In this document: positions 42,173-57,151 of the stretch, piece by piece
Numbering within the stretch: the stretch's first letter is position 1
Layout: each line of letters begins with the position of its first letter
Assembly: GCF_019704555.1 (NCBI RefSeq)
Contig: NZ_AP024745.1
Location: 6,704,501 to 6,768,500 of the forward strand
Length of the DNA stretch: 64,000 nt
Origin: Actinoplanes sp. L3-i22
Lineage (GTDB): Bacteria > Actinomycetota > Actinomycetes > Mycobacteriales > Micromonosporaceae
Direction of reading: 5' to 3'
Notes under the pieces: generated by a model
Seen by the model: the letters and a program-made list of their open reading frames with translations, nothing else
Database searches by the model: none
Told to the model about the DNA's origin: nothing
Translations under genes and position numbers: made by a program

Positions 42173-42987
42173 GATCGATCCCTTTCTGCCGCAGATGCAG
42201 GCGCCGGCGATGTGGTGGGGCCGAGCAGGTCTGGCCCGTTGTTTTTCGTCGCTGCCAGGGGCAGGGCCGTCACAGCGTCGGCGAGCGCGATCAGCCGCTC
42301 GGCCGCGATGACGGCCGCTGCCAGGTCCGGGCGCGCTTGTGTATCGACGGCGTCGGCGAGCCGGCTGCGCAGCGCGGCGCCGTTCGATGCTTTGGGAATG
42401 CCGAGCTGTGCGCAGATGCTGGCCAGGCGCGCGTGGTCGCTGCGGGCCAGGTACTTCGCGGCCAGTTGCAGGAGCATCAGGGTTGTCTCGGGTGCTGTGG
42501 GGTCACTGCCGCGGGTGTCGCTGCTGGGGTGCCGGTCCAGCAGCGCGATGAACCCGAGGTCCGCGCGCCGCCGTTGCTCAGCGGCGAACAGGAGCAGGCC
42601 ATCGGCGGGATGAGCGGCGGTTGCCGCCGGCCACAGATACAGGTCCACGAGCACCGGCAGGCCAGCTAGTTCCAGGCACACGGCCAGGTAGGCGCCCCCG
42701 GCGGGGGCGTTGCGCGGTTTAGGACGGGCGAACAGCCTCCGGCCCGGTAGGCCCAACCCGGCGAAGACGTCGGACGGCGGGGGTTGCGTGACGGCCACGA
42801 TCAGGTCGATGTCGCTGAGCGCATCGGCGTCGCCGCGACCCAGCGACCCGAACAGCCACGCCGCGACGGCCAGAGGGTGGGATCGCAGCCGGGTCACCGC
42901 CGTGCCGAGCCAGTCCGCGCGGGCCTCGGCAAGAGCAGCGAGCATCGCCGTGGCCGCTGGGGTGGTGTCGTCGCCGCCGGGATTCAT
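42169..42987 (-). CDS. Nucleotidyltransferase (MNT type)
   Basis: A 272-residue protein. VAAWLFGSLGRGDADALSDIDLIVAV (about 42-66) is the GSxxRG...SDIDL signature of Pol-beta-like nucleotidyltransferases. The following LPVLVDLYLWP supplies the third acidic residue. The rest is helical. Such enzymes transfer NMP to antibiotics, proteins or RNA. ATG 42987 in an ATGA overlap with the ABC transporter stop. The start of the tail matches no other domain. Confidence 0.82.
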   Translation of the reverse strand: MNPGGDDTTPAATAMLAALAEARADWLGTAVTRLRSHPLAVAAWLFGSLGRGDADALSDIDLIVAVTQPPPSDVFAGLGLPGRRLFARPKPRNAPAGGAYLAVCLELAGLPVLVDLYLWPAATAAHPADGLLLFAAEQRRRADLGFIALLDRHPSSDTRGSDPTAPETTLMLLQLAAKYLARSDHARLASICAQLGIPKASNGAALRSRLADAVDTQARPDLAAAVIAAERLIALADAVTALPLAATKNNGPDLLGPTTSPAPASAAERDRS

Positions 42988-44930
42988 GACGCCACGCCGG
43001 AGCTGGTGTAGCCGGCTGCCTGCAGCGAGAACAGCTCTCTATATCGGCCGCCGGCCGCGATCAGCTCGGCGTGAGTGCCCTGCTCGACGAGCCGGCCGCC
43101 GTGCATGACGAAGATCCGGTCCGCGTGCACGACGTTGGCGAGCCGGTGCGTGATCAGGATGGTGGTGCGCTGCCCTTGCCGGCTGCGGATGGCTTGGAAG
43201 AGGGTGTCCTCGGCGCGCGGGTCGAGCGCGGACGACGGCTCGTCCATGATCAGCAGGTCGGCGTCGCGGAGAAAGCCGCGGGCGGCGGTGATGCGCTGCC
43301 ACTGGCCGCCGGACAAATCCTGGCCGTCCTTGAACGTGCGGTCCAGCAGCGTCTCGTACCCTTTGGGCAGGTCCTGGATCATGGTGTGGGCGGCGGCCAT
43401 CGCCGCCGCCGCCTCGATCCGAGTCTGCTCGGCAGGAGTGTTGATGTCGCCCAGCGCGATGTTGGTGGCGGCGGTGAACGGCCACTTGTGGTGCTCCTGC
43501 AGCACCACCGAGATGCGGGCGCTGAGCGCGATGCTGTCCCAGGCGGTCAGGGGCCGGCCGTTCCACAGGATGGCTCCCGCGCTGGGTGTGCGCAGGCCGG
43601 CAATCATCGCGGCGAGCGTCGACTTGCCGGAGCCGTTCTCACCGACGAAGGCCACCGTCTGGCCGGCCCGGATGCTCAGCGTGACGTCGTCAACGGCGGG
43701 CGCTTCCCGATCGGGATAGCGGTGCGCCACGCTCCGGATCTCCAGCTCGCGCAAGTCCTCCGGCCGGGCGGCAGGCTCCTCGTGCCGCTCAGGCAGGTAG
43801 GACGTTGCCCGGTCGAGGAACCGGATGTATTCGTTGAAGTGCTGGCCCTCGGCGAAAACATGGTCAGCTTGGAAGGTCACCTGCGTCAGGGCGCGCTGGG
43901 CCGCCTGGACGGCGACCACGCAGGTGGCCGCTGCCGCAAGGGGGATGCGTCCGTCGAGCAGCAGGACACCCAGCAGCACGTACACGCCGGCGGAGGCGAT
44001 GCCGCTGACAATCGCGCCGATGCTGGTCGTGGTGGTGACCCGGCGGGCCAGAGCCAGATCGATTTCCGTTTGGGCGCCCATCACCTGGTCGTACTGGCCC
44101 AGTAGGAAGTCGCGCAGCCCGTACGAGCGCAGTTCGGAGGCGGAGACGCGTTCGGCCATCAGCTTGTGCAGCACCCACAGTCGGCGCCGGCGGGCGGACC
44201 CTTGCAGGTAGGTCTGGAATCGCTCGTGCCCGGCCCGTAGCGCCGCGTACGCATTCGGGGTGGTCGCCAGCAGCAGCGCCAGCAGCAGCAGCGGATGGAT
44301 GACGATCACAGCAATCGCGACGGCGAGGAAGCTGACGATCCCGGCGAGCAGGTTCATCACGCCTTTGATCAGGTCGATCACCGACTCGGTGCCGCGCGAG
44401 GCGCGTTCCATGCTGTCGGCAAAGTCGTCCTGGTCGAAAGAGTCGAGCTGCACGGCGGTCGTGGTCTCGAACAGCCGCCGCTCGGCCTGCTGGTTGATCC
44501 GCGGAGTGAGCCCGTTGAGGGCGTACCCGGTGGCGATGCCGAGCCCGCCGCGGACCGCAATCGAGGCGGCCAGCCAGGCGAGTGCGGGGAGCGCGGCCTC
44601 GACCCGGGCCGGGGTCGGGCCGGACGCGAACAGTTCGATCAGCACCCGTTGCGTGGCCAGCAGCCCGAAGGTGGCCATCGCGCCGGCCGTCAGCGTCGTG
44701 CCCGCTACGGTCGCGGTCCGCATCCGGTCGGCGCGCCAGCTGATCCGCAACGCCTCGGCGATCAGCTTCGGCATTTCGGCGAAGACGCCCAGCATCCCGG
44801 CGTCGATGCGCGCCCGCATGCCCTGCTCCCACCACATCGGCCGCAGCTCGGGCAGGACGGATTCGCGCGCAGCCGCGCTGCGCTGTGACGGGAGATCGCT
44901 GTGCGGGGCTTCGGTCTCGGGTGCACTCAC
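42984..44930 (-). CDS. ABC transporter, fused permease and ATPase
   Basis: A 648-residue half-transporter. Six spans lie between about 70 and 360 (GAMATFGLLATQRVLI, LLAGIVSFLAVAIAVIVIHPLLLLALL, IVSGIASAGVYVLLGVLLL). The ATPase has Walker A FVGENGSGKSTLAAM (about 440), Q-loop VVLQEH, signature DLSGGQWQR, Walker B LLIMDEPSSALD and switch His ITHRLA. Lipid or peptide exporter type. GTG 44930 follows AGGAGAG. It leads an operon of eight genes and is separated from the queCDE chain by 203 bases. Confidence 0.9.
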   Translation of the reverse strand: MSAPETEAPHSDLPSQRSAAARESVLPELRPMWWEQGMRARIDAGMLGVFAEMPKLIAEALRISWRADRMRTATVAGTTLTAGAMATFGLLATQRVLIELFASGPTPARVEAALPALAWLAASIAVRGGLGIATGYALNGLTPRINQQAERRLFETTTAVQLDSFDQDDFADSMERASRGTESVIDLIKGVMNLLAGIVSFLAVAIAVIVIHPLLLLALLLATTPNAYAALRAGHERFQTYLQGSARRRRLWVLHKLMAERVSASELRSYGLRDFLLGQYDQVMGAQTEIDLALARRVTTTTSIGAIVSGIASAGVYVLLGVLLLDGRIPLAAAATCVVAVQAAQRALTQVTFQADHVFAEGQHFNEYIRFLDRATSYLPERHEEPAARPEDLRELEIRSVAHRYPDREAPAVDDVTLSIRAGQTVAFVGENGSGKSTLAAMIAGLRTPSAGAILWNGRPLTAWDSIALSARISVVLQEHHKWPFTAATNIALGDINTPAEQTRIEAAAAMAAAHTMIQDLPKGYETLLDRTFKDGQDLSGGQWQRITAARGFLRDADLLIMDEPSSALDPRAEDTLFQAIRSRQGQRTTILITHRLANVVHADRIFVMHGGRLVEQGTHAELIAAGGRYRELFSLQAAGYTSSGVAS

Positions 44931-45133
44931 TCGATCAGCTCTCCTCGAAGTCGTGGGCGAGGCCGCCCGGTGGGAATGGAGGGGGCTGCGACGTCAAGCC
45001 AAAGCGGTCACGTTCAACGGGTACCGGACCGCGGGTGTGGCGCGGTGCCGGACGCGCGACTGACTCCGCCGATCCGGCACAGCATTCGCGCGTACGGCCG
45101 AAGATCGCGTGTCGCTACCACCGGAAGCGGCCG

Positions 45134-45538
45134 TCATGTCGCCGCGCTGGTCGTGGTGAGAATCTCCCATCGGTTTCCGGAGGGATCTTCGACGAAGACC
45201 GCGTAATAACTGGGCAGGTAGTCATATTCCTGTGGCGGATGCACGACGCGGCCCGTCGCGATCTGCACGACTGCGGAGTGCGCGGCGTCGACAATGCCGC
45301 GGTCATCGACCTCGATCGCGAGATGCTGGAGCCCAGGTCGCCCGTGGGTATGCGGTTCACGGTCGGCGCCTTCGACGGGATAGAGCAGGACTTCCGGCGT
45401 TATGCCGCCCCAGGTGCAGATGCGAGGGTCGACGGTGCCTGGTTGGTAGCCGATGACACTGAGGCAAGCGTCGTACCAGCAACGGCTGGCTTCCAGGTCG
45501 ATGGCGGTAAGCGCGACGTGGTGCAGGGCTCCGGCCAC
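45134..45538 (-). CDS. VOC family protein (glyoxalase/bleomycin-resistance fold)
   Basis: A 134-residue protein from GTG 45538, preceded by GGAG. LHHVALTAIDLEASRCWYDACLSVIGY, HTHGRPGLQHLAIEVDDRGIVDAAH and YYAVFVEDPSGNRWEIL give the two beta-alpha-beta-beta-beta modules with His and Glu for metal. It ends the long operon from queC. Possible roles are dioxygenase, isomerase or binding of a reactive metabolite. Confidence 0.85.
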   Translation of the reverse strand: MAGALHHVALTAIDLEASRCWYDACLSVIGYQPGTVDPRICTWGGITPEVLLYPVEGADREPHTHGRPGLQHLAIEVDDRGIVDAAHSAVVQIATGRVVHPPQEYDYLPSYYAVFVEDPSGNRWEILTTTSAAT

Positions 45539-45564
45539 GTGAGGTCTCCATTCTCCGGCCGCCG

Positions 45565-46224
45565 TCAGGCGGAGATTCGTCCGGCATCTGCGTCGGCGTG
45601 CTCGGGACACGGCCCGAACAGGCCAGCTGTTTCGGGAAGGCGGCCGAGAACGGGTACCGGAGCGAACGCCTCGGCGTACTGGGTGCCGATGCGCAGGCCG
45701 TGGAGTCTGCCGAGCACCTCGGCCATCGGGCCGAAGTGTTCGACGATGGGCTGCGAGCTGTGTGACCGCAGGGCCCGGATCTTGGTTTCCCACTGCCCGG
45801 AGGCGTTGATCATGATGGGCAGATAGATGGGCCGGCCATGGCGGTCGAGGTTGTTGTAGCCGTCGCACGTGTACACCCGCGCGGGAAGGCCGGTCTCGAT
45901 CACGACGTCGGGCAGTGCGCTGATGACTATCTCGGCGGTGCGCCGGTGATCCGGGTGCACGTCGTCGACGTGGTGGGTGATGACGACCTGCGGTGCCAGG
46001 CGGCGAAGGAGTTGCTGTACGGACGCGACGGAAACGTCGGGCAGCCGTTCGAGTCGGGCGCCGAGGATGCCGGCGCCCGCGGCGGCCTCGGCGTCGCGGA
46101 TCGGATCGTGTGCGGTAACGGCGATGACCGCCGACTGGGCGGCGGCGATCGTCGCGCCTGCCCACAGTTCGGCGTCGTCGGGGTGCGCCATGATCGTGAG
46201 TAGGTCGACCGCGGGTTTCACCAT
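45565..46224 (-). CDS. PIG-L family deacetylase
   Basis: A 219-residue Zn-dependent de-N-acetylase. TIMAHPDDAELWAGATIA (about 10-28) carries the HPDD zinc motif, and THHVDDVHPDHRRTAEIV has HxxH with the third ligand. The family deacetylates GlcNAc-type sugars, as in mycothiol and antibiotic biosynthesis. The presence of two glycosyltransferases upstream fits a sugar substrate. ATG 46224 overlaps the exonuclease stop. Confidence 0.88.
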   Translation of the reverse strand: MVKPAVDLLTIMAHPDDAELWAGATIAAAQSAVIAVTAHDPIRDAEAAAGAGILGARLERLPDVSVASVQQLLRRLAPQVVITHHVDDVHPDHRRTAEIVISALPDVVIETGLPARVYTCDGYNNLDRHGRPIYLPIMINASGQWETKIRALRSHSSQPIVEHFGPMAEVLGRLHGLRIGTQYAEAFAPVPVLGRLPETAGLFGPCPEHADADAGRISA

Positions 46225-47084
46225 CGGCCGATCGCCTCCACAACCGCCGCGGGTGTCGGGAGCAGTGCGGACGGCTCAGCGGTGGGTTTGATGTCCAGCG
46301 GCAGGCCCCGGTTGAGCCGGATCATGGCGCGCCACTTCAGGACGTCGTCCCAGGCGGCGGACAGGGCAGCGGTTCGGCTACCGCTCATCCGGCCGTTCTC
46401 GTGGAGGGTCTCCAGTGTTTGCCCGTCGGCGAGCAGCGTTGCGGCAGTTCCTGGGCCGATGCCGCGGACGCCGGGGATGTTGTCGGCCGGGTCTCCGGTC
46501 ATGGCGCGGAAATCGGCCCACTGCGCGGGCGTCACCTTGAACTTGGCGAGCACGGTCTGCTCGTCGATGTGGCGTTTGCCGCGGTGCATGGCGGTGTTGA
46601 GAACAGTGATCCGCTCGTCGATGAGCTGGTAGAAGTCGCGGTCGCCGGACATGATGTAGACCCGCCGGGCCGCATCGGCGGCGGCGAGGGTGGCGATGAC
46701 GTCGTCGGCTTCCTGGTCATCGATCTCGGCCCAGGCGATGCCGTGGGTATCCAGGCCGTCCTTGACGGCAGGTAGCTGCAGGATCGGGGCCATCGCGTCC
46801 TCATCGACGGGACGCTGGGCCTTGTACGAGACGTCAGTGGCCTTGCGGGCTGCGGTGCCGTGCTCACCGTCGAAGACCACGATGATCTCGGGCGGGTGCG
46901 GGAGTTCCTCACGGATGGCAACGCCCAGTAGCGCGAAGAAGCCGAACAGGCCGGTGATGTCGCGGGTCTTGTCTTTCGACATGATCTTGGCGGGGAAGCC
47001 GAAAAATGCACGCCACAGAAGGTTGTGGCCGTCGACGAGCAGCAGCGGAACGGACGGATCGAGACGTGACGGGACAGCGCCCAT
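46218..47084 (-). CDS. 5'-3' exonuclease / flap-endonuclease-like protein
   Basis: A 288-residue protein of the PolA N-terminal type. LLLVDGHNLLWRAFFGFP (Asp near 17), EIIVVFDGEHGTAARK, IDDQEADDVIATLAAADAARRVYIMSGDRDFYQLI (acidic cluster) and WADFRAMTGDPADNIPGVRGIGPGTAATLL (H3TH) are all present, so the active site seems complete. Its placement inside a metabolite-like operon is odd: it acts on 5' flaps of DNA or RNA-DNA hybrids. Start ATG 47084 overlaps the upstream stop. Confidence 0.88.
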   Translation of the reverse strand: MGAVPSRLDPSVPLLLVDGHNLLWRAFFGFPAKIMSKDKTRDITGLFGFFALLGVAIREELPHPPEIIVVFDGEHGTAARKATDVSYKAQRPVDEDAMAPILQLPAVKDGLDTHGIAWAEIDDQEADDVIATLAAADAARRVYIMSGDRDFYQLIDERITVLNTAMHRGKRHIDEQTVLAKFKVTPAQWADFRAMTGDPADNIPGVRGIGPGTAATLLADGQTLETLHENGRMSGSRTAALSAAWDDVLKWRAMIRLNRGLPLDIKPTAEPSALLPTPAAVVEAIGRW

Positions 47085-48223
47085 CAGCTCACCACCTTGA
47101 GAAGTAGGTCAGCGATGTGGGCGGGCCGATAGTCCCGTGCAAGGTAGTAAGCAGCCCGTGATGCTGTCTCGTAACGTACCGGATCGGCGCGTAGCTGCCA
47201 GGCGGCGCGCCACAGGGCTCGGGGTCCGGCTTCGAGGTCGGCGAGCACGCCCCCATCACCGATCAGGGCCGGTAGATTGCCGGTGCGGTAGGCGATGACT
47301 GGGGTGCCGCCGGCCATTGACTCCAACGCCACCAGACCGAACGTTTCGCGCAGCGAGGGCACGATCACGAGCCCGGCTGTGGCGAGCCAGCGGGGCGCGG
47401 TATCCCAGCTCAATCCGTCACCGAGCGAGATTCCTGCGGCATCGCAGTAGGCGGTGCACCTTGTGATGGTGTCGTCCTGGCTGCCGATGGTCAGCTCGAA
47501 GCCGGCTTTCGCCAGCGCCACTTCGATTCGGGTTGACGCGCCGCTGGTGCCGTGAACGCGGCGGTCGGCGCGTACGGCCGCGTCGCCGGCGGCAGCGAGT
47601 AACGGCAGGATGCCTTTCTCGGGAGCGGGCCGTGCCATCACCCGAATGGGTCCGTCGGTCCGCAGGCGGGTCCGGTCCTGCCGGTTGGGTGGTGCTGGCT
47701 CGGTCAGCAGGGGGTTGGGCAAGATCTGCCATGAGGTGGTGTCGAAGCCGCGTGCGGTGGCCTCGGCTCGCGCGGAGGCAGACGGGACGAGCACGGCGTC
47801 CGGCTTCCGGGCGAGTGCAAGTTCGAGGTCTTCTTGGTGACCGATGACGTGGGCGACGAGGACTCGGCGGTGCGGGATGGTGGCCGGCATGATGCGGCCC
47901 AGGCCCCACAACGCGTCGACGTAGACGGCGGCGTCCACCTGGAGCTCGCGGTAGATGTCGACGAGTTCGGCGGTGATCAGGTCGGCTGCGGCGGTGATCG
48001 TGGCCCGCAGTGTCTGGTCGTCGGACGGCCACGGCACGCGCAGGCTGGTGAGTCTGCGGATGGTCGCTCCGGCATACCGGGCGGGCGCGGCGGGTGCTGC
48101 GGTGATGATGATCGTGCGGTGGCCGAGGGCGGCCAGGCCTGCGGCGAGACCGGCGGTGGCGCGTTCCATCCCGGCGGGGGCGTCGGGGGTGAACGAGACG
48201 AGCACGAACGCGACAGTGGTCAT
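47084..48223 (-). CDS. Glycosyltransferase family 4
   Basis: A 379-residue GT-B enzyme. N-terminal VAFVLVSFTPDAPAGMERATAGLAAGLAALGH binds the acceptor. C-terminal VMARPAPEKGILPLLAA and LVIVPSLRETFGLVALESMAGGTPVIAYRTGNLPAL is the E-x7-E nucleotide-sugar site. Start ATG 48223 in an ATGA overlap. Acceptor unknown. Confidence 0.88.
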   Translation of the reverse strand: MTTVAFVLVSFTPDAPAGMERATAGLAAGLAALGHRTIIITAAPAAPARYAGATIRRLTSLRVPWPSDDQTLRATITAAADLITAELVDIYRELQVDAAVYVDALWGLGRIMPATIPHRRVLVAHVIGHQEDLELALARKPDAVLVPSASARAEATARGFDTTSWQILPNPLLTEPAPPNRQDRTRLRTDGPIRVMARPAPEKGILPLLAAAGDAAVRADRRVHGTSGASTRIEVALAKAGFELTIGSQDDTITRCTAYCDAAGISLGDGLSWDTAPRWLATAGLVIVPSLRETFGLVALESMAGGTPVIAYRTGNLPALIGDGGVLADLEAGPRALWRAAWQLRADPVRYETASRAAYYLARDYRPAHIADLLLKVVS

Positions 48224-48792
48224 CGGCGCTGTACCCGCTCCGGGATGGTCAGCACCTCAGTGCGCTGGCCGGGTTCGAGGTCGTGCTCCCACGGGAAGTG
48301 CACCCAGTCGGCGACGTCCCACAGCCACAGATCCGGCGTGTACGCCGAGCCGATGTTGCGGCACAGGGCGACGGTGCGGATGTTGGCGTCCGCCTTCAGG
48401 TACGGGCCGAGAGCGTCGGTCACCGCCGCGAACGTTTCGCCCGTGCCGCAGATGTCATCGACCAGCAAGATCTCGCCGAACAGCTTCCGGCTGTTCAATG
48501 CCTCGGCAAGGCCGGTGACATCGACGGTGACGGAGCCGGTGGCCTGCTGGTAAAGCTCGTCGGTGGGGTTGTGCTGGGCGCGGACCGTATGGGCGATCCG
48601 CCCGGCGGACTTCGCGATCCGTTCGGCCGGGATCCGGCCGCCGCCGGCGATGCCGATGGTCACCGTGAAGCACGCGTACTTGACGTATGCGGCACTGGAG
48701 AGCATCTCGCAGCCTTCGGCCAGCACGGGGTCGGTGACCTGCCAGATCCGGCGCCGCTCGAAGACACGCTGCCCGCTGTCTGCCGGCGTCAT
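48220..48792 (-). CDS. Phosphoribosyltransferase
   Basis: A 190-residue type I phosphoribosyltransferase. The PRPP loop is ILLVDDICGTGETFAAV (about 110-126), and the closing hood WVHFPWEH is typical of guanine/xanthine or hypoxanthine enzymes. In a cluster with queCDE it could act on a 7-deazaguanine base, which is inference. ATG 48792 overlaps the upstream stop. Confidence 0.85.
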   Translation of the reverse strand: MTPADSGQRVFERRRIWQVTDPVLAEGCEMLSSAAYVKYACFTVTIGIAGGGRIPAERIAKSAGRIAHTVRAQHNPTDELYQQATGSVTVDVTGLAEALNSRKLFGEILLVDDICGTGETFAAVTDALGPYLKADANIRTVALCRNIGSAYTPDLWLWDVADWVHFPWEHDLEPGQRTEVLTIPERVQRR

Positions 48793-49724
48793 GCCGCTGC
48801 CACCGGTTCGGGCAGCAGATCAGCCGCTTCGGTCAGCGGCTTGGTGCCGGCGATCTGGGTGCCATGCGGGTCGTTGCGCCAGACCCGGGCGTCCGCGCGG
48901 ATCACGGTGAAACCGCCGGCACCGGCCCGGGTCCGCAACCGCAGCCGGAATCCGGCAGGAACGGCGAGAGCGCCGACGAGCTCGGTGGCCTCGTCGTCGG
49001 TGAGCATCTGTCCGGTGACGGTGGCGCCGGCCCCGATCGGCAGCATCTGCAGGAAGGTGACGCCGCCAGCACCGAGCCGCACTGCGAGGTCGACCATGGC
49101 GGCGGCCTCGGCCCGGTTCGAGCGCATCAACACCATCTGCAGTTGCACGGGAAGGCCCGCCGCGACGGCCGCGCGTACCCCGGCGGTCGCGCGCCTGAAG
49201 CTGCCGGCCGAGCGATGGTAGTCGTGGGTTTCGCCGGTGGCGCCGTCGAAGCTCACCCGCACGGCGTCGAACGCGTCGACCAGTTCGCTGGCGCGCCGCT
49301 CAAGGTGCCATCCGTTGGTGGTCACACTTGCCGCGGTCCGGCCGCCGCCGGCAACCCGGCGGCCCAGGTCCGGCAGCTCGCGCAGCAGCAGCGGCTCGCC
49401 GCCGGAGATGTCGACGCCGAGCACTCCGGAGCCGGCGAGGACTCCGGCAACGCGGTGTCGTTCGAGCTGGTCGGTTTCGTGCACGCTGGTGTCGTCCAGG
49501 CAGTGGGCGCAGGCAAGGTTGCAGCGCACCAGCGGGGACCAGCACAACGACACGGGCATGGCCCGCGACACGGAGATCGGCGGCCCGAGTTCGCCGTCGT
49601 CGAGGACGAGTCGTCCCGTTGGCGGCTGGCTGGTCAATCTGAGGGGCAGGTGGTGGTTTAGGCCGGTGGCAGGGTCGTGCAGGATGCCACCGAGGTCGGG
49701 CGAGGCGGCGAACACGCGGATCAT
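48789..49724 (-). CDS. Radical SAM protein
   Basis: A 311-residue protein. The [4Fe-4S] motif CNLACAHC (about 68-75) follows LCWSPLVR. Then VDISGGEPLLL (GGEP), VTTNGWHL and VRVSFDGATGETHDYHRSAGSFRRA, the order of MoaA/PqqE/SPASM-like members. The protein is too short for a full SPASM domain; the tail lacks the Cys set. ATG 49724 is in an ATGA overlap with the glycosyltransferase stop. Possible peptide or sugar modification. Confidence 0.87.
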   Translation of the reverse strand: MIRVFAASPDLGGILHDPATGLNHHLPLRLTSQPPTGRLVLDDGELGPPISVSRAMPVSLCWSPLVRCNLACAHCLDDTSVHETDQLERHRVAGVLAGSGVLGVDISGGEPLLLRELPDLGRRVAGGGRTAASVTTNGWHLERRASELVDAFDAVRVSFDGATGETHDYHRSAGSFRRATAGVRAAVAAGLPVQLQMVLMRSNRAEAAAMVDLAVRLGAGGVTFLQMLPIGAGATVTGQMLTDDEATELVGALAVPAGFRLRLRTRAGAGGFTVIRADARVWRNDPHGTQIAGTKPLTEAADLLPEPVAAA

Positions 49725-50761
49725 TTCAGCTGTATCCCTTCGGTGATCAGCTTCAAGGCGGACGGCTGCTTGGTGAGCGGAGCAGTGTTATCGGGGGTGT
49801 CCAGCAGCCGCCAGTAGCGCTCGACGTTGCGTGCAGCGGTGGCGAACTTCTGCTGCCACACCTGCTCGGCCTGCGGAGGATCGAGGTGGAATCCACGCAC
49901 GGAACGCACGGGCGCTACCTTGCAGCCGGCGGCGATCAGCCGGGCACCGAGGTAGGTGTCCTCGCACCCCCACCCCTCGGAGAAACCCGGGTCGAATCCG
50001 CCGCAGGCGACAACCCTCGCGCGGGGAACCGCGACGAGCGCGGTCACGACCATCCGCGGAAGGTCCCAGTCGTAGTACCGCTGCCCGTGCCCCAGAGCCC
50101 GGAACTCGTCGGTGTCATCCAGCGGCTTGCCGTTGACCGGCTTGTCGAAGACCATCCCGGTGTAGAACATCGGGACGCCGGTAGGCGGCCGCCACACCAC
50201 CCGATGGTCGGCGGTCAGATCCGGCTCGCCGGCCGGTACGACGGCGACCCCTTTTGGCCCTTCTTGGAAGGGCACGTTCTGTCGGAACCCGACGAGGACA
50301 AGGTCGTCGTGGGCGCGCCCGGCAAGGGTGGCGAGAACGTGTCGCGGCAGTGCCATGTCGGCGTCCAGGTAGACGACGGTCGGCGCTTCGGCGAGCATTG
50401 TTCCCACGTTGCGGGCCGGGCCTGAGCCGACCTGCTGCGGCAGCCGCCACACGATGCTGGTGACCGGGTGCGCGGCGGCGATCTGGCCGGTCGAGTCCGT
50501 GGACGCATCGTCGACGACGATGACCTCGTACTTGCCGTCAGTCTCCTGCCGGGCCAAGGCGTCCAGAACCGATGGCAGGCAATACGCGCTGTTGCGCGCC
50601 GCGATGACCACGGACACGGAGGTACCGCGGGCGTCCGAGCGTGGCGACGGATCGTGCCAGCCGGCCCTCAGGTTGCGAGACAGACTGGCGATGATCGGGT
50701 CGTAGTCGTTGTCGCGCCCGGCCAGCCGCTGCAGCAGGGTTTGTGCGACGGTCACGGCCAT
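49721..50761 (-). CDS. Glycosyltransferase family 2
   Basis: About 346 residues of GT-A type. VSVVIAARNSAYCLPSVLDALARQETDGKYEVIVVDDASTDSTGQIAA (about 47-95) and VVYLDADMALPRHVL (DxD) give the nucleotide-sugar site, and GWGCEDTYLGARLIAAGCKV the ED acceptor motif. ATG 50761 was chosen within the overlap with the preceding stop; ATG 50767 and GTG 50755 are alternatives. Confidence 0.87.
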   Translation of the reverse strand: MAVTVAQTLLQRLAGRDNDYDPIIASLSRNLRAGWHDPSPRSDARGTSVSVVIAARNSAYCLPSVLDALARQETDGKYEVIVVDDASTDSTGQIAAAHPVTSIVWRLPQQVGSGPARNVGTMLAEAPTVVYLDADMALPRHVLATLAGRAHDDLVLVGFRQNVPFQEGPKGVAVVPAGEPDLTADHRVVWRPPTGVPMFYTGMVFDKPVNGKPLDDTDEFRALGHGQRYYDWDLPRMVVTALVAVPRARVVACGGFDPGFSEGWGCEDTYLGARLIAAGCKVAPVRSVRGFHLDPPQAEQVWQQKFATAARNVERYWRLLDTPDNTAPLTKQPSALKLITEGIQLK

Positions 50762-51234
50762 CCCCATCCGTCCAGCACTGCGGACGCGGCGTACCAGCCG
50801 CGCGGATCCTCGATCCACCGCAGCCGGCACGACGCCGGAAGCTCACCCAGCAGCTCGAGGTACGCCGGCTCGGCGACGACGAGCAGCTCGGCGGGGACAC
50901 CGCCGGCTGCCAGCTCGCGGGCGAGTTGCTGGTCGACCAGCGCGGTGAGGCTGACCAGGTTGGTGCCGTTGATCGGCTGGTCATACGTCCGCAGCGGGGC
51001 GTCGGCGGAGACGAGGCCGTGCCGGGCGGACAAAATTCGGATCCGGGCACGCAGGGCCGGCTGGCCGCCGAGCCGGGCCCGGATCTGCGGAAAGCAGCCG
51101 CCCTGGTATAGCTCCAGTGCGGGCATCGGCTCGGTGCTGGCGGTTTTACGTCGCGAGCAGCCCAGCACGATGAGCCTGCCGCCCACTGGATCGTGGTTCA
51201 CGCTGCTGGCGACTGCGGTCGGTGTGGGGTTCAT
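50752..51234 (-). CDS. DUF6884 protein
   Basis: A 160-residue protein starting in an ATGA overlap with the FGE-like gene. RLIVLGCSRRKTASTEPMPALELYQGG (about 18-44), RIRILSARHGLVSADAPLRTYDQPI and LLVVAEPAYLELLGELP show the DUF6884 pattern also present in the N-terminus of the DpdA fusion (VLVLSALHGLVALDDVLDPYDVEL). So the window holds two DUF6884 domains, one free and one fused to DpdA. It links the queCDE operon to deazaguanine DNA modification. Confidence 0.78.
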   Translation of the reverse strand: MNPTPTAVASSVNHDPVGGRLIVLGCSRRKTASTEPMPALELYQGGCFPQIRARLGGQPALRARIRILSARHGLVSADAPLRTYDQPINGTNLVSLTALVDQQLARELAAGGVPAELLVVAEPAYLELLGELPASCRLRWIEDPRGWYAASAVLDGWGWP

Positions 51235-51788
51235 CGTTGCCTCACGATTCGTAGTCCGATACCGGCAGAGCGCAGCTCTTGCGGTGCGGCGTTGAGGAAG
51301 GTGCTGCGGGCGTACAAGGCAGGCGAGCAGTACGAGCCGCCCCGGATGATCCGTCCGTCGCCCAGCACCGGCGTTGCGGTCCATTCCCAGACCAAACCGG
51401 CAAGATCGAGAACTCCGTCGGGGGTGGCTCCGGCAGGCCGGCCGCCGACAGCGACGGGCTGCCGGTAGCCGGTCGGTCGTAGCACCGCCCGGCAGAAGTC
51501 AGCATCCGCATCACCCCATGGGTACGCGCGCCGATTGGGGCCGGCGGCCAGCCATTCCCATTCCACGGAGCGGGGAAGCCGGCCACCGAGCCGGGCCGCC
51601 AGGTCGGTGGCCTCGCGGTAGGTGATCTGCGTGATCGGCAGGTCCGGTTCCGCGCCCGGATAGCCGGCCTGCATGTGTGTGATCGGGGTGGTCGTCACCT
51701 CGAGGTCCGCGACCAGCACAGGCCGGCCGGCGTCGCCGTACCGGCACACTCCGCCGGGCACGAGTGTCCAGGCCATAGCGAGGGCCAT
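51231..51788 (-). CDS. FGE-sulfatase/C-type-lectin-like protein
   Basis: A 185-residue protein, short for the family. MAWTLVPGGVCRYGD, ITQITYREATDLAARLGGRLPRSVEWEWLAAGPNRRAYPWGD, DLAGLVWEWTATPV and RIIRGGSYCSPALYARSTF...GIGLRIV follow the formylglycine-generating-enzyme fold. Functional FGE has two active-site Cys; here only one Cys is near the position, so oxidase activity is doubtful. In diversity-generating retroelements this fold, ending in such a GGS...GLRIV region, is the variable target. The gene lies four bases after the RT stop, which makes that comparison worthwhile. Confidence 0.8.
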   Translation of the reverse strand: MALAMAWTLVPGGVCRYGDAGRPVLVADLEVTTTPITHMQAGYPGAEPDLPITQITYREATDLAARLGGRLPRSVEWEWLAAGPNRRAYPWGDADADFCRAVLRPTGYRQPVAVGGRPAGATPDGVLDLAGLVWEWTATPVLGDGRIIRGGSYCSPALYARSTFLNAAPQELRSAGIGLRIVRQR

Positions 51789-51792
51789 GGCG

Positions 51793-52662
51793 TCACCCGT
51801 CGATCAGGTAGAGATCTTCGGGATGGCTCGTTCCCGGCTCCCGGATCCGGCTCTTGCGCCTGTTCGGCTTCAGACCCAGGCGAGCGAGGGCATCGCTAAT
51901 CCGGTCGAACGCCGCCAGGGCGTGTTCGCGGTTGGCCGCGAAGACGGTGTAGTTGTCGGCGAACCGGACCACGTGCAGACCGTCGAGCAACCGGTCGGCC
52001 TGGCCGAGGCGCAGCTGGAACAGCACGGGCCACAGCCCGGTGCCGGGCGCCATGGGCCACGGCAAGCCTGTGATCGCGGTGCGCACCCGGTCCAGGAATG
52101 TGCCGTCGTGGACGATCTCGGCGAGCCAGCCGACACACTCGTCCACGTCACCGCCGAACGAGGCGTCGGCCACGTCGACGTCGACGATCCAACGGTTGCC
52201 GCTGGACAGGTGCGCGGCGGCCTGCCGGACCGCGGTGAGCCGGTTGCGGCGCGGCCGGTACGCCGACACCCACGGCGCCAACCAAGCGTCGAGCAGCGGA
52301 TCGACCGCGGTGCGCATCGCCCGGTGCACGATCCGGTCCTCGACCGTCGGGATGACCGCGGTCATCAGCTTTCCGGTGTAGGTCTCGATGTCTACGAGCC
52401 GGTTCACCGCGGGCTGCCACGTGCCGTCGGCCAGCCGGGCCGCGAGCGCGGCGAGCCGACCGCGCAGATCACGGCGATAACCGGCCCAGGTGAGCCCGTC
52501 GGCGCCCGGCGCCGAGCTGCGCCGCATACAAAGCCGGGCGGCACGGTGCAGATGTGCCACATCGATGAGGTATGGCACCAAGGAGTGCGCGGCACGGCCC
52601 TGATCGGCTACCGTGTTGTCCGCCTGGGCGGCAGGAACGATCCCGCCACCCAACACCTTCAC
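51793..52662 (-). CDS. Reverse-transcriptase-like protein with FADN motif
   Basis: A 289-residue protein from GTG 52662 after AGGGAAG; a longer frame begins at 52800. RT motifs in order: RSSAPGADGLTWAGYRRDLRGRL (RT1), TAVIPTVEDRIVHRAMRTAVDPLL (about 103-126), VSAYRPRRNRLTAV (RT2), WIVDVDVADASFGGDVDEC (RT3, motif A), PMAPGTGLWPVLFQLRLGQ (RT4, where PQGxxxSP or SQ is usual) and LHVVRFADNYTVFA (motif C, YADD replaced by FADN, about 234-237), then GLKPNRRKSRI. No maturase or endonuclease domain. It lies between queE and the FGE-like gene. Possible DGR, defence or cellular RT; activity uncertain. Confidence 0.78.
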   Translation of the reverse strand: MKVLGGGIVPAAQADNTVADQGRAAHSLVPYLIDVAHLHRAARLCMRRSSAPGADGLTWAGYRRDLRGRLAALAARLADGTWQPAVNRLVDIETYTGKLMTAVIPTVEDRIVHRAMRTAVDPLLDAWLAPWVSAYRPRRNRLTAVRQAAAHLSSGNRWIVDVDVADASFGGDVDECVGWLAEIVHDGTFLDRVRTAITGLPWPMAPGTGLWPVLFQLRLGQADRLLDGLHVVRFADNYTVFAANREHALAAFDRISDALARLGLKPNRRKSRIREPGTSHPEDLYLIDG

Positions 52663-52732
52663 AGCGCCGCTTCCCTGCACACGCGGCGCGCGGCGGCCGG
52701 AACGACGGCCCCGCCCAGGCCCAGGACCCTGG

Positions 52733-53449
52733 TCAACGACCACGCTCGTCACCCCACAGCAGAACGTGCAGCCGAGGCGTGAGGTTCCAACCCCGGGCAA
52801 TCACCGGGTCGGCCAGCTCGCGGCTGCGGCGCAGAATCGTGTCCGCGTCGGTGCCCTCCGGCATCACCCAGATCGGCGCCAACCCGAACCGGGCTTCCCA
52901 CTCGGCGATCTCGTCCAGGTCCTCGACACCAACCGCGACGAACTTCCACACGGCTTTCCCTGTCGCCAGAAAGGCGTTAACCGCTGGGTCGCGGCGACGC
53001 CGTCGTTCGGTCATGCCGGACGCGGCGAGCTTCGGGCTGACATTGAACTGATCGACCACGCTCACCAACGCCGCGGTCGGCGCGATGGATCCGGACGTCT
53101 CCACCTCGACACGGACCTTCCCGGCCCGCAGACGGCCAGCAAGGTCGGCGACGGCGCCTTGTTGCCTCAGCGGCTCGCCCCCGGTGATGACCGCCATCCC
53201 GGCGCTGCCGGCAAGGACCTTCTCCGCGACATCGGAGACCGGTAAAACCTCCCGGAAGTCATCGAGATTGAAGCGCGTCGAGTCCCAGGTATAGGCGGTG
53301 TCGCAGTACAAGCAGCTCATGTGGCAGCCGGACAGCCGGACGAACATTGTTCGCCGGCCCAGCAAGGTGCCTTCGCCTTGGATGGTTGGCCCGAAGATCT
53401 CGGAGATCACGAGGTGACCAGGTGGCGCGTGCAGGACGGAGCCGGTCAT
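52733..53449 (-). CDS. queE: 7-carboxy-7-deazaguanine synthase
   Basis: A 238-residue radical SAM enzyme that makes CDG from CPH4. It has the short barrel with GPTIQGEGTLLGRRTMFVRLSGCHMSCLYCDTAYTW (CxxxCxxC, about 30-50), VITGGEPLRQ and VEVETSGS. ATG 53449 is in an ATGA overlap with queD. A gap of 70 bases separates it from the RT gene. Together with queC and queD it completes the CPH4-to-preQ0 part of the pathway; folE is not in the window. Confidence 0.93.
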   Translation of the reverse strand: MTGSVLHAPPGHLVISEIFGPTIQGEGTLLGRRTMFVRLSGCHMSCLYCDTAYTWDSTRFNLDDFREVLPVSDVAEKVLAGSAGMAVITGGEPLRQQGAVADLAGRLRAGKVRVEVETSGSIAPTAALVSVVDQFNVSPKLAASGMTERRRRRDPAVNAFLATGKAVWKFVAVGVEDLDEIAEWEARFGLAPIWVMPEGTDADTILRRSRELADPVIARGWNLTPRLHVLLWGDERGR

Positions 53450-54165
53450 AGCGAATCCGGCAGGTATTCGGCCCACGTGCTCCGCGTCTCGGACACTCGC
53501 GCCGAGTTCACCTGAACTCCGTCGGGGAGGTCGAGGTGGGCGCTCGTCCAGGTGAACAGATGCCGCGCGAGGTACTCGCTGGTCGGCGGTTCACCGCCGA
53601 CGCTCTCGTTGAGCGACGATCCGTCCAGTTCCTCGGCGGCGTACTTGAAGAACGGGCCAAGCAGCGCTGACGCGTCTGCGTCCGGATCGCTGAACACGAC
53701 CGTGGCGGTGTAACTGTGTCCGTGCAGACGGCCGCACTTGTGCCAACCCGGCAGGCCCGGCAGCTGGTGCGCCGCCTCGAACGTGACTTCGTCAGCGCCG
53801 AGCCGGTCGGCGGTGGCCGGCAGCGGCGACCACACCGCGACCTGGTCGAGTTCGACACCGTCGCGCAGTGGGAGATGTCTGGCGAAGAGGTCCCGCACGA
53901 ATTCAGTGATCCCCTGGTCCGTCGGCTGCGTGAGCACATCAACCTCGTTGAGGTTCCGGTGATCGAGACATTCATCGACTCGCTGGAGCACGCCGCCGAG
54001 CACGCCGAAGTCGACCACGAAACCCGGGTCCTGCAGGACGTCCGCAGCCAGGACCACCTCGAGGGTGTAGGTATGTCCATGCAGCCGGGCCGGACACCCC
54101 GGGTTGCCCTGCGCAGGCGTGTGCGCGGCATCAAAGGACATCCGTTTCCCGATGCGCCACGTCAC
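53446..54165 (-). CDS. queD: Tandem QueD, 6-carboxytetrahydropterin synthase
   Basis: A 239-residue protein made of two QueD-like halves. The first half has FDAAHTPAQGNPGCPARLHGHTYTLEVVL with catalytic Cys, zinc histidines and VDECLDHRNLNEV, all key residues. The second half has FEAAHQLPGLPGWHKCGRLHGHSYTATVVF but LDGSSLNES where the catalytic LDH should be. So one lobe seems catalytic and the other degenerate. Normal QueD is about 120 residues. The start is GTG 54165 in a GTGA overlap with queC. It makes CPH4 from dihydroneopterin triphosphate. Confidence 0.9.
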   Translation of the reverse strand: MTWRIGKRMSFDAAHTPAQGNPGCPARLHGHTYTLEVVLAADVLQDPGFVVDFGVLGGVLQRVDECLDHRNLNEVDVLTQPTDQGITEFVRDLFARHLPLRDGVELDQVAVWSPLPATADRLGADEVTFEAAHQLPGLPGWHKCGRLHGHSYTATVVFSDPDADASALLGPFFKYAAEELDGSSLNESVGGEPPTSEYLARHLFTWTSAHLDLPDGVQVNSARVSETRSTWAEYLPDSL

Positions 54166-54932
54166 GATGCCACCGCCAGGTACGACGTGGGATCGGGTAC
54201 GCCGGCGTCGCGGAACGCCTCACGCCGTTCCGTGCAGGTGCCACACGTGCCGCAGTGCAACTCCCCGCCCTTGTAGCAGGACCAGGTCGAGTCGAAGGGG
54301 ACATTCAGCGCCGCGCCCGCGACCACGATGTCCGTCTTGGACCAGCTGAGGAACGGAGCGGTGACGGCGAAGCCCTCCGAGATGAAGCCGCTGTTGCCGG
54401 CGCGAGCAGCTTGCTCATACGGCTCAAGAAATTCGGGCCGGCAATCGGGATAGATCGCGTGATCGCCGGCGTGCGCCCCGAACGCGACCAGGTCCGCCTT
54501 GATCGACACCGCTAGTGCCACAGCGAGGTCCAGCAGGAGCGCGTTGCGATTCGGGACGACTGTGCTTCGCATCGTCACTGCGGCATAGTGACCGTCCGGT
54601 ACAGGAACGGCTTCGTCGGTGAGAGCAGAGCCCTGCAACAGGGCGGTTATTGACGTCAGGTCGACAAGATGATGAGGAATCCGGAGGACGTCCGCGATAC
54701 GTGCGGCGTGATTCAGTTCTTTCCGGTGCCGCTGACCGTAGTCGATCGAGATACTCGTCAGCCGGACACCTTCTGCCCTAAGCCAGTAGGCCAGCACCGT
54801 GGAATCAAGACCGCCGGACAGGACGACGATGCCATAGCATCCCGTGAGAACCCGTGGGGGTCGTCCGGCAGATGGCTGTGGCCCGGTCATCACCTCGCCA
54901 CCAGCGACATTTGCAGAAAATTTGGGCAGCAT
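54162..54932 (-). CDS. queC: preQ0 synthase QueC
   Basis: A 256-residue ATP-dependent enzyme converting CDG to preQ0. The ATP loop is VVLSGGLDSTVLAYWL (about 36-51), and the zinc site is CYKGGELHCGTCGTCTERREAF (Cys about 222-237). SIDYGQRHRKEL and RSTVVPNRNALLLDLA are family signatures. ATG 54932 is preceded by AGGAGGTCCCACG. It is first in the long leftward operon, downstream of heptamer repeats at 55471. Confidence 0.94.
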   Translation of the reverse strand: MLPKFSANVAGGEVMTGPQPSAGRPPRVLTGCYGIVVLSGGLDSTVLAYWLRAEGVRLTSISIDYGQRHRKELNHAARIADVLRIPHHLVDLTSITALLQGSALTDEAVPVPDGHYAAVTMRSTVVPNRNALLLDLAVALAVSIKADLVAFGAHAGDHAIYPDCRPEFLEPYEQAARAGNSGFISEGFAVTAPFLSWSKTDIVVAGAALNVPFDSTWSCYKGGELHCGTCGTCTERREAFRDAGVPDPTSYLAVAS

Positions 54933-55562
54933 CGTGGGACCTCCTGGACATTCATGATCAATATTCCCGAGTGGAGGTATCGGGATCGCCTACTTGCCTA
55001 GGTGACGCGAGATGCAGAGACGGCCAGTCATCCCGGGCAGCCGGCGTCCATACCGTCAGGGCACGCCGAAAGAAATTCCCCACAGAATGATTCGTGGGTC
55101 ATCGCGATTTCACCAGCTGTTCCCGGCCCGGCATAAGGCGGGCAGCGCGTCGCGAAAAGTGCAACTTGCAAGCAACAAGGCCCGCCAGGGCATTGACCTG
55201 CAGAAAATCCCTTCTCCCTTGGTGTTTCAACGCCAACGTACGGAGTCAATCAGGCCATGACCGATGTCGGAAAGAGTCGCAGCCACACTCCGACATTGCT
55301 TCCGAAATCCTTGACCAGGAGTCGGCTTAGATCCGACTGGACGACCGAACTAATGCCGAAAGCACCACGGCCGTTGAACAGGCTCTCCTTAGCAACAAGC
55401 ACGGCTCTCCCGCGCGTGTCAGCCGGACACCGAAAGTCTCACGCCGCGTGTCAATGAGATCCGGCAGCACTCCGACAAAGTTCCGACAACGTTTCGACGA
55501 GTCTCACCCTAAGAACCACGTTCACACCGCGGCGGGCGTGGTCGTAGTCCTCAACCTGGAAC
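54933..55562. other. Regulatory region between queC and PPC gene
   Basis: About 630 bases. It contains the heptamer array at 55471-55499, a weaker pair (TCCGACA at 55289, TCCGAAA at 55301) and TGTCGGA at 55265. A leftward 24-codon frame (55028-55102, MTHESFCGEFLSACPDGMDAGCPG broken into three Cys positions) lies 95 bases upstream of queC. No full gene is seen. Confidence 0.55.
55471..55499 (-). promoter_or_regulatory. 11-bp-spaced heptamer repeats upstream of que operon
   Basis: TCCGACA at 55471, TCCGACA at 55482 and TTCGACG at 55493, each 11 bases apart. The same layout occurs at 58828 and 62991 in the same orientation relative to leftward genes. Heptamers with 4-base gaps are the pattern bound by SARP-type activators; the TPR/XRE regulators encoded nearby are alternative binders. 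The distance to queC (539 bases) is long. Confidence 0.65.
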
Positions 55563-56033
55563 TCACGCCTGGTGGGACCCGAACTGGAGCAGAGGAACGT
55601 CGTAGAGGTCCGCTTGTCGCTGGCGGTGCAGCTGTGGCTCGACGATCTCCACGATGATCATCTCGGTGAGGAACTGCACAGTGGCATCGAGCAGATGACT
55701 CGTGTGTCCCGTCGCGCTGTGTGCTTTCAAGCCCACGGCAACGTGAATGTGTGGCGCGATGCTTCCGCTGGCGTCGTCCCAGGCGAGGGTGCCACCGCCG
55801 AGGGCTTCGACGTTGGTGAGATGGACTTTTGACCAGACTGGAGCTTGAGGGTCTTCGAGCTGTTCACACGTTCCGACCAGGTCTGCGGTGGCGAAGCCGG
55901 CGATGAACATGGGGATGTAGCCCTGGTGGATGCCGTTCTCGGTGCACGCTTCGGCGAGAGCGGTGTAGAAGTCGTCTCCGTGGTCGAGCACCACCACGAA
56001 GGTGCGGCCGGTCGTGACCTCCCGAGAACGCAT
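55563..56033 (-). CDS. PPC domain (DUF296) protein
   Basis: A 156-residue protein. RTFVVVLDHGDDFYTALAEACTENGIHQGYIPMFIAGF (about 9-46), VGTCEQLEDPQAPVWSKVHLTNVEALGGGTLAWD and PHIHVAVGLKAHSATGHTSHLLDATVQFLTEMIIVEI are the PPC fold and its GxHxH metal-like motif. Bacterial members have unknown roles; plant ones bind DNA. ATG 56033 overlaps the asparaginase stop by one base. Confidence 0.85.
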   Translation of the reverse strand: MRSREVTTGRTFVVVLDHGDDFYTALAEACTENGIHQGYIPMFIAGFATADLVGTCEQLEDPQAPVWSKVHLTNVEALGGGTLAWDDASGSIAPHIHVAVGLKAHSATGHTSHLLDATVQFLTEMIIVEIVEPQLHRQRQADLYDVPLLQFGSHQA

Positions 56034-57109
56034 CACGCACCGCCGGCCATGGCGTGAGCTGATGGCGCGATCTCGGCGCCCCAGGGCCACCTCTCGCTGC
56101 CGCCGAGCCCGGCGGCAGCCGCGAACGCGGCCACAACCTGATCCCGGTCCGCTCCGGCGGCAAGCGCCAGGTACAGCAAAATTCGGGCCTTGTACGGGTC
56201 GAGGAGACCGGCAGGGATCAGGCCGCGGCTGATGAGGTCGCGTTCCGAGCCAGGGAAGGCGTAGGTCTTGGCGAGGACCGGGCCGCTGCCGGTACGGGAG
56301 GTGAGCACGACCGGGATTCGCGCGGCGGCCTCGGTCAGCGTCGCCAACCAACTTTCCGGGACGTGGCCGACACCGAACCCGGCCACGACGAGCCCATCGG
56401 CGCCAGCGGCAAGGGCGGCCAGCGGTGCACTGTCATCGCCGAGCGTCGCGGTGTAAAGCCGTACGAGTGGCGACGGGTGACGGCCGGCGGGAATGACGTG
56501 GCGGCCGGTGGCGTGGTTGACGATCGTGACGTGGCCTTCGACGAGGTAGCCGAGCGGGCCGCCGTTCGGTGAGGCGAAAGTCGCGATGCTGGTCGAGTGG
56601 GTCTTGCGTACGCGTCGCGCGGCGTGGATCTCGTCGGCAAGGACCACGACACAGCCCAGGTCGCGGGCGGCGCTGCTGGCGGCGACCTGGATCGCTGCGA
56701 GGAGGTTGGCGGGGCCGTCGGCGCCGGCCATCGTCGGGTTGCGCATCGCGCCGGTCACTACGAGCGGCTGTGGACCGGGGTGGAGCAGATCGAGGGCGTA
56801 CGAGCTCTCTTCGATCGTGTCGGTGCCTTGAGTGATGACGACCCCAGTGATGCCGGCTTCCCAATACTTGTGGAGCGTGGTGGTCAGCTCGGTGAGATCG
56901 TCGATGGTCAAGGAGGCGCCGGGCTTCGTGCGGAAGGTCAGCACGTCGACTTCGATGCCGGTCTCGTAGAGGCCGGGGACCGCGTCGACGAGTTGTCGGG
57001 CAGTCAGCGACGGGGTGACCCCGCCGGAGTCAGTCGCGGTCATGGCGATGGTTCCGCCCAAAGCGACCACGAGCACGCTTGGCGCCGGCGTGCTGGTTTC
57101 GTCAGCCAC
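56033..57109 (-). CDS. Type II L-asparaginase-like amidohydrolase
   Basis: A 358-residue protein. The two catalytic threonine motifs are ALGGTIAMT (about 17-25) and GVVITQGTDTIEESSYALDLLH (about 90-111); the Ser/Lys partners lie in HAARRVRKTHSTSIATFASPNGGPLG. GTG 57109 follows GGAAGG. It is 42 bases downstream of the TPR/XRE regulator at 57152 and coupled to the PPC gene, so all three form one operon. The substrate may be asparagine or another amide. Confidence 0.9.
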   Translation of the reverse strand: MADETSTPAPSVLVVALGGTIAMTATDSGGVTPSLTARQLVDAVPGLYETGIEVDVLTFRTKPGASLTIDDLTELTTTLHKYWEAGITGVVITQGTDTIEESSYALDLLHPGPQPLVVTGAMRNPTMAGADGPANLLAAIQVAASSAARDLGCVVVLADEIHAARRVRKTHSTSIATFASPNGGPLGYLVEGHVTIVNHATGRHVIPAGRHPSPLVRLYTATLGDDSAPLAALAAGADGLVVAGFGVGHVPESWLATLTEAAARIPVVLTSRTGSGPVLAKTYAFPGSERDLISRGLIPAGLLDPYKARILLYLALAAGADRDQVVAAFAAAAGLGGSERWPWGAEIAPSAHAMAGGA

Positions 57110-57151
57110 AGTGCGACCTTCCTCTACCGGTGAAACGATCGATCATGGAGC

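Follow-up and report, generated by a model that had tools for sequence, protein, structure and literature searches.

A reverse transcriptase-family protein and a small structured RNA in a conserved deazaguanine gene set of actinomycetes

What would a reverse transcriptase (RT)-family protein do among the enzymes that make 7-cyano-7-deazaguanine (preQ0)? The question is raised by a leftward operon of Actinoplanes sp. L3-i22, located in a 64,000-nucleotide (nt) stretch of DNA (the window) from a single-contig genome of 12.01 Mb, in which queC, queD and queE share a strand with RT, glycosyltransferase, radical SAM and nuclease genes. It was found that these genes form a genuine system shared between genomes, rather than having come together by chance. 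The queE-RT junction contains a structured RNA element and the RT has an altered active site, both of which had been overlooked in the original prediction made from the sequence of the locus.

The gene set and its conservation

The locus had been described as thirteen leftward genes, closely coupled from queC to an open reading frame (ORF) of the VOC type. All thirteen are present and their domain calls hold (Pfam, NCBIfam), that of PIG-L being based on NCBIfam matches below the cut-off in the window and on a Pfam match for a relative from a second gene layout (layout B, below). Neighbouring genes overlap by 1-79 nt or are separated by gaps of 4 nt (RT and the formylglycine-generating enzyme (FGE)-like gene) and 26 nt (PIG-L and VOC). 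A simple scan revealed no terminator-like site at the queE-RT junction. The genes are located as follows.

54162..54932, minus strand: queC, 7-cyano-7-deazaguanine synthase (Pfam QueC, 207 bits)
53446..54165, minus strand: queD, 6-carboxytetrahydropterin synthase, a double PTPS protein (two Pfam PTPS stretches, a correction to the original prediction; NCBIfam QueD above cut-off)
52733..53476, minus strand: queE-like radical SAM protein, 7-carboxy-7-deazaguanine synthase (NCBIfam Bsubt_queE, 123 bits, below the cut-off of 206)
51793..52743, minus strand: RT-family protein (conserved domain from about 52593; inferred start GTG at 52743, upstream of the RNA element)
51231..51788, minus strand: FGE-sulfatase protein, C-type-lectin-like, 185 aa (Pfam, 65.7 bits)
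50752..51234, minus strand: DUF6884 protein, DpdC-like (invariant CxxxK and SAxxG; YaaA-like fold)
49721..50830, minus strand: GT2 glycosyltransferase (Pfam; start uncertain)
48789..49724, minus strand: radical SAM protein, MoaA/viperin-like (CxxxCxxC conserved)
48220..48792, minus strand: purine-type phosphoribosyltransferase (PRTase; domain match)
47084..48223, minus strand: GT4 glycosyltransferase (also above the cut-off of Pfam GT4-conflict)
46218..47084, minus strand: stand-alone 5'-3' exonuclease / flap nuclease (acidic residues conserved)
45565..46224, minus strand: PIG-L-type (BshB1-like) deacetylase (NCBIfam below cut-off; matched in 30/30 complete layout-A loci)
45134-45538, minus strand: VOC ORF, outside the conserved unit

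With the RT as query, 164 relatives were obtained at E 1e-10 among 7999 scored candidates. Within the best 120 of these 164, all those with an organism name belong to genera that we take to be actinomycetes. An RT profile scan over a species-genome collection resulted in 42 loci where the same genes stand in the same order beside an RT homologue, 8 of them in the second layout; the idea that the set might never co-occur elsewhere is thereby discarded. Matches were found for queC, the FGE-like gene and DUF6884 in 40 of the 42 loci each, for the PRTase in 39, for GT4 and the nuclease in 38, and for GT2, the radical SAM gene and PIG-L in 31. Of the two loci without FGE-like and DUF6884 genes, one is cut by the end of its contig and the other is a second copy that is partial. 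Since the VOC ORF had no match in any of the 42 loci, the conserved unit ends at PIG-L.

Layout A (34 loci) has the order queC-(queD-queE)-RT-FGE-DUF6884-GT2-radical SAM-PRTase-GT4-nuclease-PIG-L. Before completeness was counted, five cut or partial loci were set aside (L004, L008, L036, L041 and L043). In the 30 complete layout-A loci, queC, the FGE-like gene, DUF6884, the nuclease and PIG-L were found in 30/30 each, and GT2, the radical SAM gene, the PRTase and GT4 in 29/30 each, the exceptions being L020 (no GT2) and L040 (none of the other three). The genes queD and queE were each present in 14/30 (same strand, fetched stretch). Two further layout-A exceptions are due to contig edges, as L004 begins and L008 stops at the RT. 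L041 (Prauserella flavalba) is a second, partial copy in its genome. It has queC and the RNA, its RT match is restricted to the first part, and the 1.4 kb beyond contain no FGE match. Some layout-A loci extend with genes for a DegT aminotransferase, a GFO/IDH/MocA oxidoreductase and a methyltransferase.

Layout B comprises 8 loci (L028, L031, L032 and L034-L038). Its 7 complete members all have queD, queE, DUF6884, PRTase, GT4, FGE-like, RT and nuclease genes, and 6 of the 7 have queC. No match was found there for GT2, the radical SAM gene or the layout-A PIG-L; these loci encode a WbqC-like protein as well as a different PIG-L and a different glycosyltransferase. Among the loci added later, L048 and L051 belong to layout A, and L052, on an Embleya megaplasmid, to layout B without a PRTase match.

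Translations that were too short or had internal stops were omitted from the conservation alignments, giving 33/42 loci for the RT and 26/40 for DUF6884. The FGE-like protein has EgtB as its nearest PDB entry by sequence, and its alignment displays no conserved Cys pair at what we take to be the catalytic place of a formylglycine-generating enzyme.

A structured RNA at the queE-RT junction

The RNA element consists of the following parts.

52622..52720 (element 52601-52722), probably plus strand: structured RNA of ~99 nt at the queE-RT junction (covariation, A.C/G.U asymmetry, fold z)
52622-52631/52711-52720, plus strand: helix P1 (covariation)
52641-52652/52690-52701, plus strand: helix P2 (covariation)
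52664-52670/52683-52689, plus strand: helix P3 (covariation)
52609..52614, plus strand: putative -10 box TACCGT, 7 nt before P1 (pattern TANNNT invariant in 42/42 RNA copies)

The consensus fold is a single rod, in which P1 (10 bp) is followed by an internal loop, then by P2 and finally by P3 with its 12-nt loop; both loops are conserved. The minimum-energy fold of the window copy contains P1 (8 bp) and P3, and lacks P2. The fold z in the window was -4.2 on the plus strand and -2.5 on the opposite strand. When 31 layout-A sequences were aligned on the operon strand, 86.5% of the helix cells were paired, versus 75.4% after shuffling, and the covariation score was 0.289 versus 0.119. Neither value was reached in 500 shuffles, and the slid structure scored at most 0.099. 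Two of the five measures were near the shuffles, namely both-side pair changes (14 vs 12.2) and further pair types (36 vs 32.8). For 42 distinct copies, in an alignment fitted to the model, the paired cells amounted to 85.9% (71.7% shuffled) and the score to 0.364 (0.137); of the identical copies (L025 = L026 = L033; L012 = L043) one of each was kept.

A covariance model built from the 31 layout-A copies matched 42 of 43 sources: 31 by construction, 3 identical copies and all 8 layout-B loci, the last at 60-79 bits. The single source missed, L004, lies on a contig that begins 23 nt before the RT match. Loci L051 and L052, which were found through the RT first, also carry the RNA (83 and 64 bits), and the Actinoplanes genome has exactly one match. 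In separate searches of 394 genomes of the class, the RNA model and family-level RT scores (at least 362 bits) were found in the same 4 genomes; at that size the RNA search uses stricter filters and weak matches are lost. All four RNA matches are inside the operon, in the window itself, in the new locus L048, and in L049 and L050, which are the already-counted loci L014 and L037. The RNA precedes the RT in layout A, whereas in layout B the gene that immediately follows it is the FGE-like one. In the assemblies of L042 and L043 the RT frame is interrupted, by either a sequencing error or decay, and the RNA element is intact.

No Rfam family matched up to E 0.5 in 40000-58000 on both strands, and the element alone gave one chance-level match only (E 2.2, 13.3 bits, gathering score 50). 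A literature search, mostly of open rather than subscription papers, returned no description of the RT-RNA pairing and the gene set. As far as Rfam and this search reach, the ~100-nt RNA and its pairing with an RT within the gene set are undescribed.

The RNA was first modelled on the operon strand. This choice of strand was reversed in view of the non-Watson-Crick cells of the helices, which on that strand are A.C in 95 cases and G.U in 23, while shuffling within columns gave about 141 and about 71. Per helix, the A.C/G.U counts were 38/2 in P1, 40/3 in P3 and 17/18 in P2. Since an A.C on one strand is a G.U on the other, the antisense strand pairs better, with 411 of 420 cells in P1 (375 in sense), 279 of 292 in P3 (242) and 378 of 447 in P2 (379). 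The 11 copies outside model building displayed 24 A.C and 2 G.U on the operon strand. A separate antisense alignment of the 31 sequences reached 93.1% paired cells and a score of 0.325 (0.175 shuffled), with all five measures above the shuffles, though with fewer countable cells. Of 7 sequences compared, 6 had their lower fold z on the antisense strand. The TANNNT before P1 may be a promoter element, as we take this pattern for an actinobacterial -10 box. These comparisons make it quite probable that the RNA is transcribed antisense to the operon.

Several observations weigh against an antisense transcript. Composition alone favours A.C over G.U about 2:1, as seen in the shuffled counts, helix P2 is neutral, and all these counts come from related sequences. 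The A.C column 5-106 of alignment A6 is explicable by synonymous Gln codons. The 11 held-out copies were scored about equally by both models (antisense higher in 7/11; 25 vs 28 pairs). No -35 box was seen before P1, and a simple scan of 44900-55700, which found no sigma-70-type promoter on either strand, did not flag TACCGT.

The sense strand seems to be constrained as well, as N-terminal codons of the RT (layout A) or of the FGE-like protein (layout B), because the element can be read through in the operon-sense frame without a stop in 42/42 copies, an in-frame start codon lies 6-36 nt upstream in 42/42, and the match lengths are 2 mod 3 in 42/42. The other two frames are closed in 41/42 and 24/42 copies. 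A conserved N-terminal peptide of the RT was considered as the main cause of the conservation and dropped, since conservation at third codon positions is almost as high as at the other two: 0.747/0.742/0.687 for positions 1/2/3 of the N-terminal stretch, compared with 0.786/0.828/0.593 where the RT core begins. It is also disfavoured by L018, where the RNA is kept through two compensating indels.

A sense-strand riboswitch or translation switch for preQ0 or the end product is very unlikely. The vicinity of start codons, the conserved loops and the adjoining preQ0 genes agree with such a switch, but the element lies after the start codon within the operon and not before queC, A.C exceeds G.U on the sense strand (even if composition alone yields more of both), and no Rfam riboswitch was matched.

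The altered reverse transcriptase and the use of preQ0

The RT keeps a group II palm, with FADN in place of YADD and a Ser at the steric gate. Among the 118 homologues having motif C, DN is found in 115 and DD in 2. The protein stops after the RT domain (266 residues modelled), the thumb/maturase part being absent. It scored 101 bits with NCBIfam group_II_RT_mat (cut-off 300); in PADLOC its best match was the generic RT model (107 bits), and DRT models gave at most 31.5 bits. In 48 of the 394 class genomes the RT matches reach no more than 136 bits, while members of the family score 362 bits or more; by their scores, these weaker matches were taken for group II intron RTs. No RNA was found at four of these weaker loci (about 3 kb each).

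Known pairs of an RT and a non-coding RNA (ncRNA) serve mobility, defence, repair or protein diversification. Compared with domesticated group II intron-like RTs such as G2L4, the present protein has the RT domain only, FADN, a changed motif B and the gate Ser, and it resides in a biosynthetic-looking operon; no group II intron RNA (domain V/VI) was matched in Rfam up to E 0.5 in 40000-58000 on both strands. A diversity-generating retroelement (DGR) was rejected, as no template/variable repeat pair occurs in 44900-55600, where the longest direct repeat is 35 nt and the longest inverted repeat 45 nt, both at 71%. In addition, motif B ends in P and not in the SQ that we assume for DGRs. Retrons and DRT systems encode, next to their RT, a short structured RNA dedicated to it, and the present operon shares this arrangement at the level of sequence. 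They differ in that the RNA of this operon is probably antisense and in layout B stands beside the FGE-like gene rather than the RT, that no close DRT match was obtained in PADLOC, and that the partners are biosynthetic rather than effectors.

Regarding preQ0, PF01702 (TGT, DpdA family) gave 0 matches at E 0.001 in the 12.0 Mb genome, and all of 14 control genomes were positive. The operon QueC is the sole QueC-family match in the genome. Because of both findings, tRNA queuosine and DpdA-type base-exchange DNA modification are unlikely uses of preQ0 here. In the passages describing them, dpd islands share with this operon the preQ0 genes and a DpdC-like (DUF6884) protein; they differ by their DpdA, of which this genome has no TGT-family match, and by the PRTase encoded in this operon. 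On the features tested, membership fails for group II introns, DGRs and dpd islands alike. The original prediction had offered either a glycosylated deazaguanine product or a nucleic-acid modification or defence system. A conserved, preQ0-dependent and glycosyltransferase-rich set agrees with the former, base-exchange modification of tRNA or DNA is weakened by the missing TGT/DpdA match and by the PRTase, and a role in defence keeps some probability.

Such a role in defence or conflict, with RT, ncRNA and nuclease as a module that uses deazaguanine to mark or sense nucleic acid, is considered quite unlikely. RT-ncRNA pairs are typical of retron and DRT defence. The DUF6884 domain was found in 17/17 members examined, of which 16/17 match PADLOC PDC-M57A and the commonest of the weakly matching DpdC models covers 9/17; GT4 exceeds the Pfam GT4-conflict cut-off and the radical SAM protein matches pVip models. 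The distribution is sporadic (4/394 genomes), with one copy on a megaplasmid and another on a contig of a viral collection. Against these points stand the absence of a DpdA/TGT match in the genome, the presence of sugar-tailoring and aminosugar-type genes, and the PADLOC result that no DRT, retron or dpd system was completed among the 10 operon proteins scanned. In the source passages on these systems, DUF6884 is the domain named for dpdC, and QueC-family proteins of type IV CBASS conjugate deazaguanine to protein. A term search of a 2026 QueC-family survey found neither reverse transcriptase, Streptomyces nor glycosyltransferase in its text.

A possible pathway and its surroundings

The reading put forward, tentatively and at slightly less than even chances, is a conserved accessory actinomycete pathway to an amino-sugar-bearing modified 7-deazaguanine nucleotide, with a dedicated RT-ncRNA ribonucleoprotein. 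We infer all of its enzymatic steps from family membership, and the binding of the RNA by the RT and the strand and role of the RNA are likewise proposals. PreQ0 would be made by QueD, QueE and QueC, and the base converted to a ribonucleotide by the purine-type PRTase. The nitrile would be processed by the DpdC-like DUF6884 protein. An N-acetylated sugar would be added by GT2/GT4 and then deacetylated by PIG-L, with tailoring by the radical SAM protein in layout A and by WbqC and the second glycosyltransferase in layout B. The RT, a presumably domesticated group II-type palm/fingers protein, would bind the ~100-nt RNA and act on it together with the 5'-3' nuclease, the RNA being the scaffold, the primer or the template for the deazaguanine nucleotide. 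RT, RNA and nuclease would thus make up a particle in which a nucleotide step is carried or templated.

A bolder version, which appears unlikely, is that the pathway is borne by RNA: with the antisense-encoded RNA as carrier, primer or template, the RT would install a deazaguanine nucleotide there, which would then be glycosylated and tailored on the RNA and freed by the 5'-3' nuclease. The Ser at the steric gate might admit ribonucleotides. Such a pathway would be a nucleic-acid counterpart of peptide-scaffolded natural products.

A number of findings speak against the nucleotide pathway with its ribonucleoprotein. The genes queD and queE are each missing from 16/30 complete layout-A loci (same strand, fetched stretch), so the precursor must have another source there. 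The changed second Asp of motif C, motif-B PQGG and the gate FF make polymerase activity of the RT doubtful, and no role is assigned to the FGE-like protein or to the 5' nuclease. In the sense alignment of 42 copies, both-side pair changes were 18 against 16.0 in shuffles (66/500 reach) and further pair types 44 against 43.0 (218/500 reach). The overlap of the RNA with coding sequence is compatible with a cis-acting element too.

The last point bears on an alternative that is rather unlikely, an ordinary 7-deazapurine nucleoside-antibiotic cluster, in which RT, 5' nuclease and RNA serve regulation or self-protection, the RT binding the RNA and controlling RT/FGE translation, and no nucleic acid takes part in the chemistry. 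The queCDE, PRTase and glycosyltransferase logic resembles that of toyocamycin and huimycin clusters as far as their descriptions cover it, and preQ0 genes within the cluster, a hallmark of this class, are found here (queC in 30/30 complete layout-A loci). According to the huimycin passages, queC, queD and queE homologues, sugar attachment and actinomycete hosts are shared. The huimycin genes listed there do not include an RT, an RNA element, a 5' nuclease, an FGE-like or a DUF6884 gene, all of them in this operon, and a GTP cyclohydrolase lies inside that cluster and not in this one. The start codon ahead of the element, the open sense frame and the match lengths of 2 mod 3 also fit translational control. 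For comparison, group II RTs bind DIVa beside their own start codon. However, the layout-B element precedes the FGE-like gene rather than the RT, and the G.U/A.C asymmetry favours the antisense strand, whose RNA would not act in regulation as a fold of the sense mRNA.

An RT with a rewritten active site, retained with its own RNA within an apparent small-molecule pathway in several actinomycete families, suggests that an RNA-protein machine is involved in the production or the control of a natural product. If a ribonucleoprotein does help to make it, this would be a new kind of biosynthesis; alternatively, the RT-RNA pair would have turned into a controller of a deazaguanine pathway. As the genome has no TGT-type enzyme match, the operon offers a clean case for asking which use preQ0 has outside base-exchange modification of tRNA or DNA. 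Deletion and metabolomics are direct, because several loci are in culturable strains. The carriers include Micromonospora lupini and Amycolatopsis coloradensis.

Some neighbouring genes were also recorded. A divergent gene of one family adjoins six clusters (L009, L030, L034-L036 and L038; e.g. L038:1377-2846, L035:815-2299). The L038 copy (489 aa), the only one scanned, has a helix-turn-helix fused to a peptide-deformylase domain and may serve in regulation or self-protection. Directly upstream of queC, Pseudonocardiales-type loci contain three small conserved ORFs of about 122, 70 and 160 aa (L006:7716-9181 and equivalents); the first and third, the two scanned, had no Pfam match. Upstream in the window, on the operon strand (55563-58939), are genes for a PCC-domain protein, an asparaginase and a 595-aa helix-turn-helix protein, matched in 0/42 loci. 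Downstream on the same strand (40138-44930) there are ABC transporter, nucleotidyltransferase-like, weakly MazG-like and MFS genes; elsewhere, ABC was matched in 1/42 loci (L030) and MFS in 2/42. The Actinoplanes genome contains three further 5'-3' exonuclease-family genes (G000:C1:1934865, 3544315 and 7824059), one of them in a 716-codon open frame.

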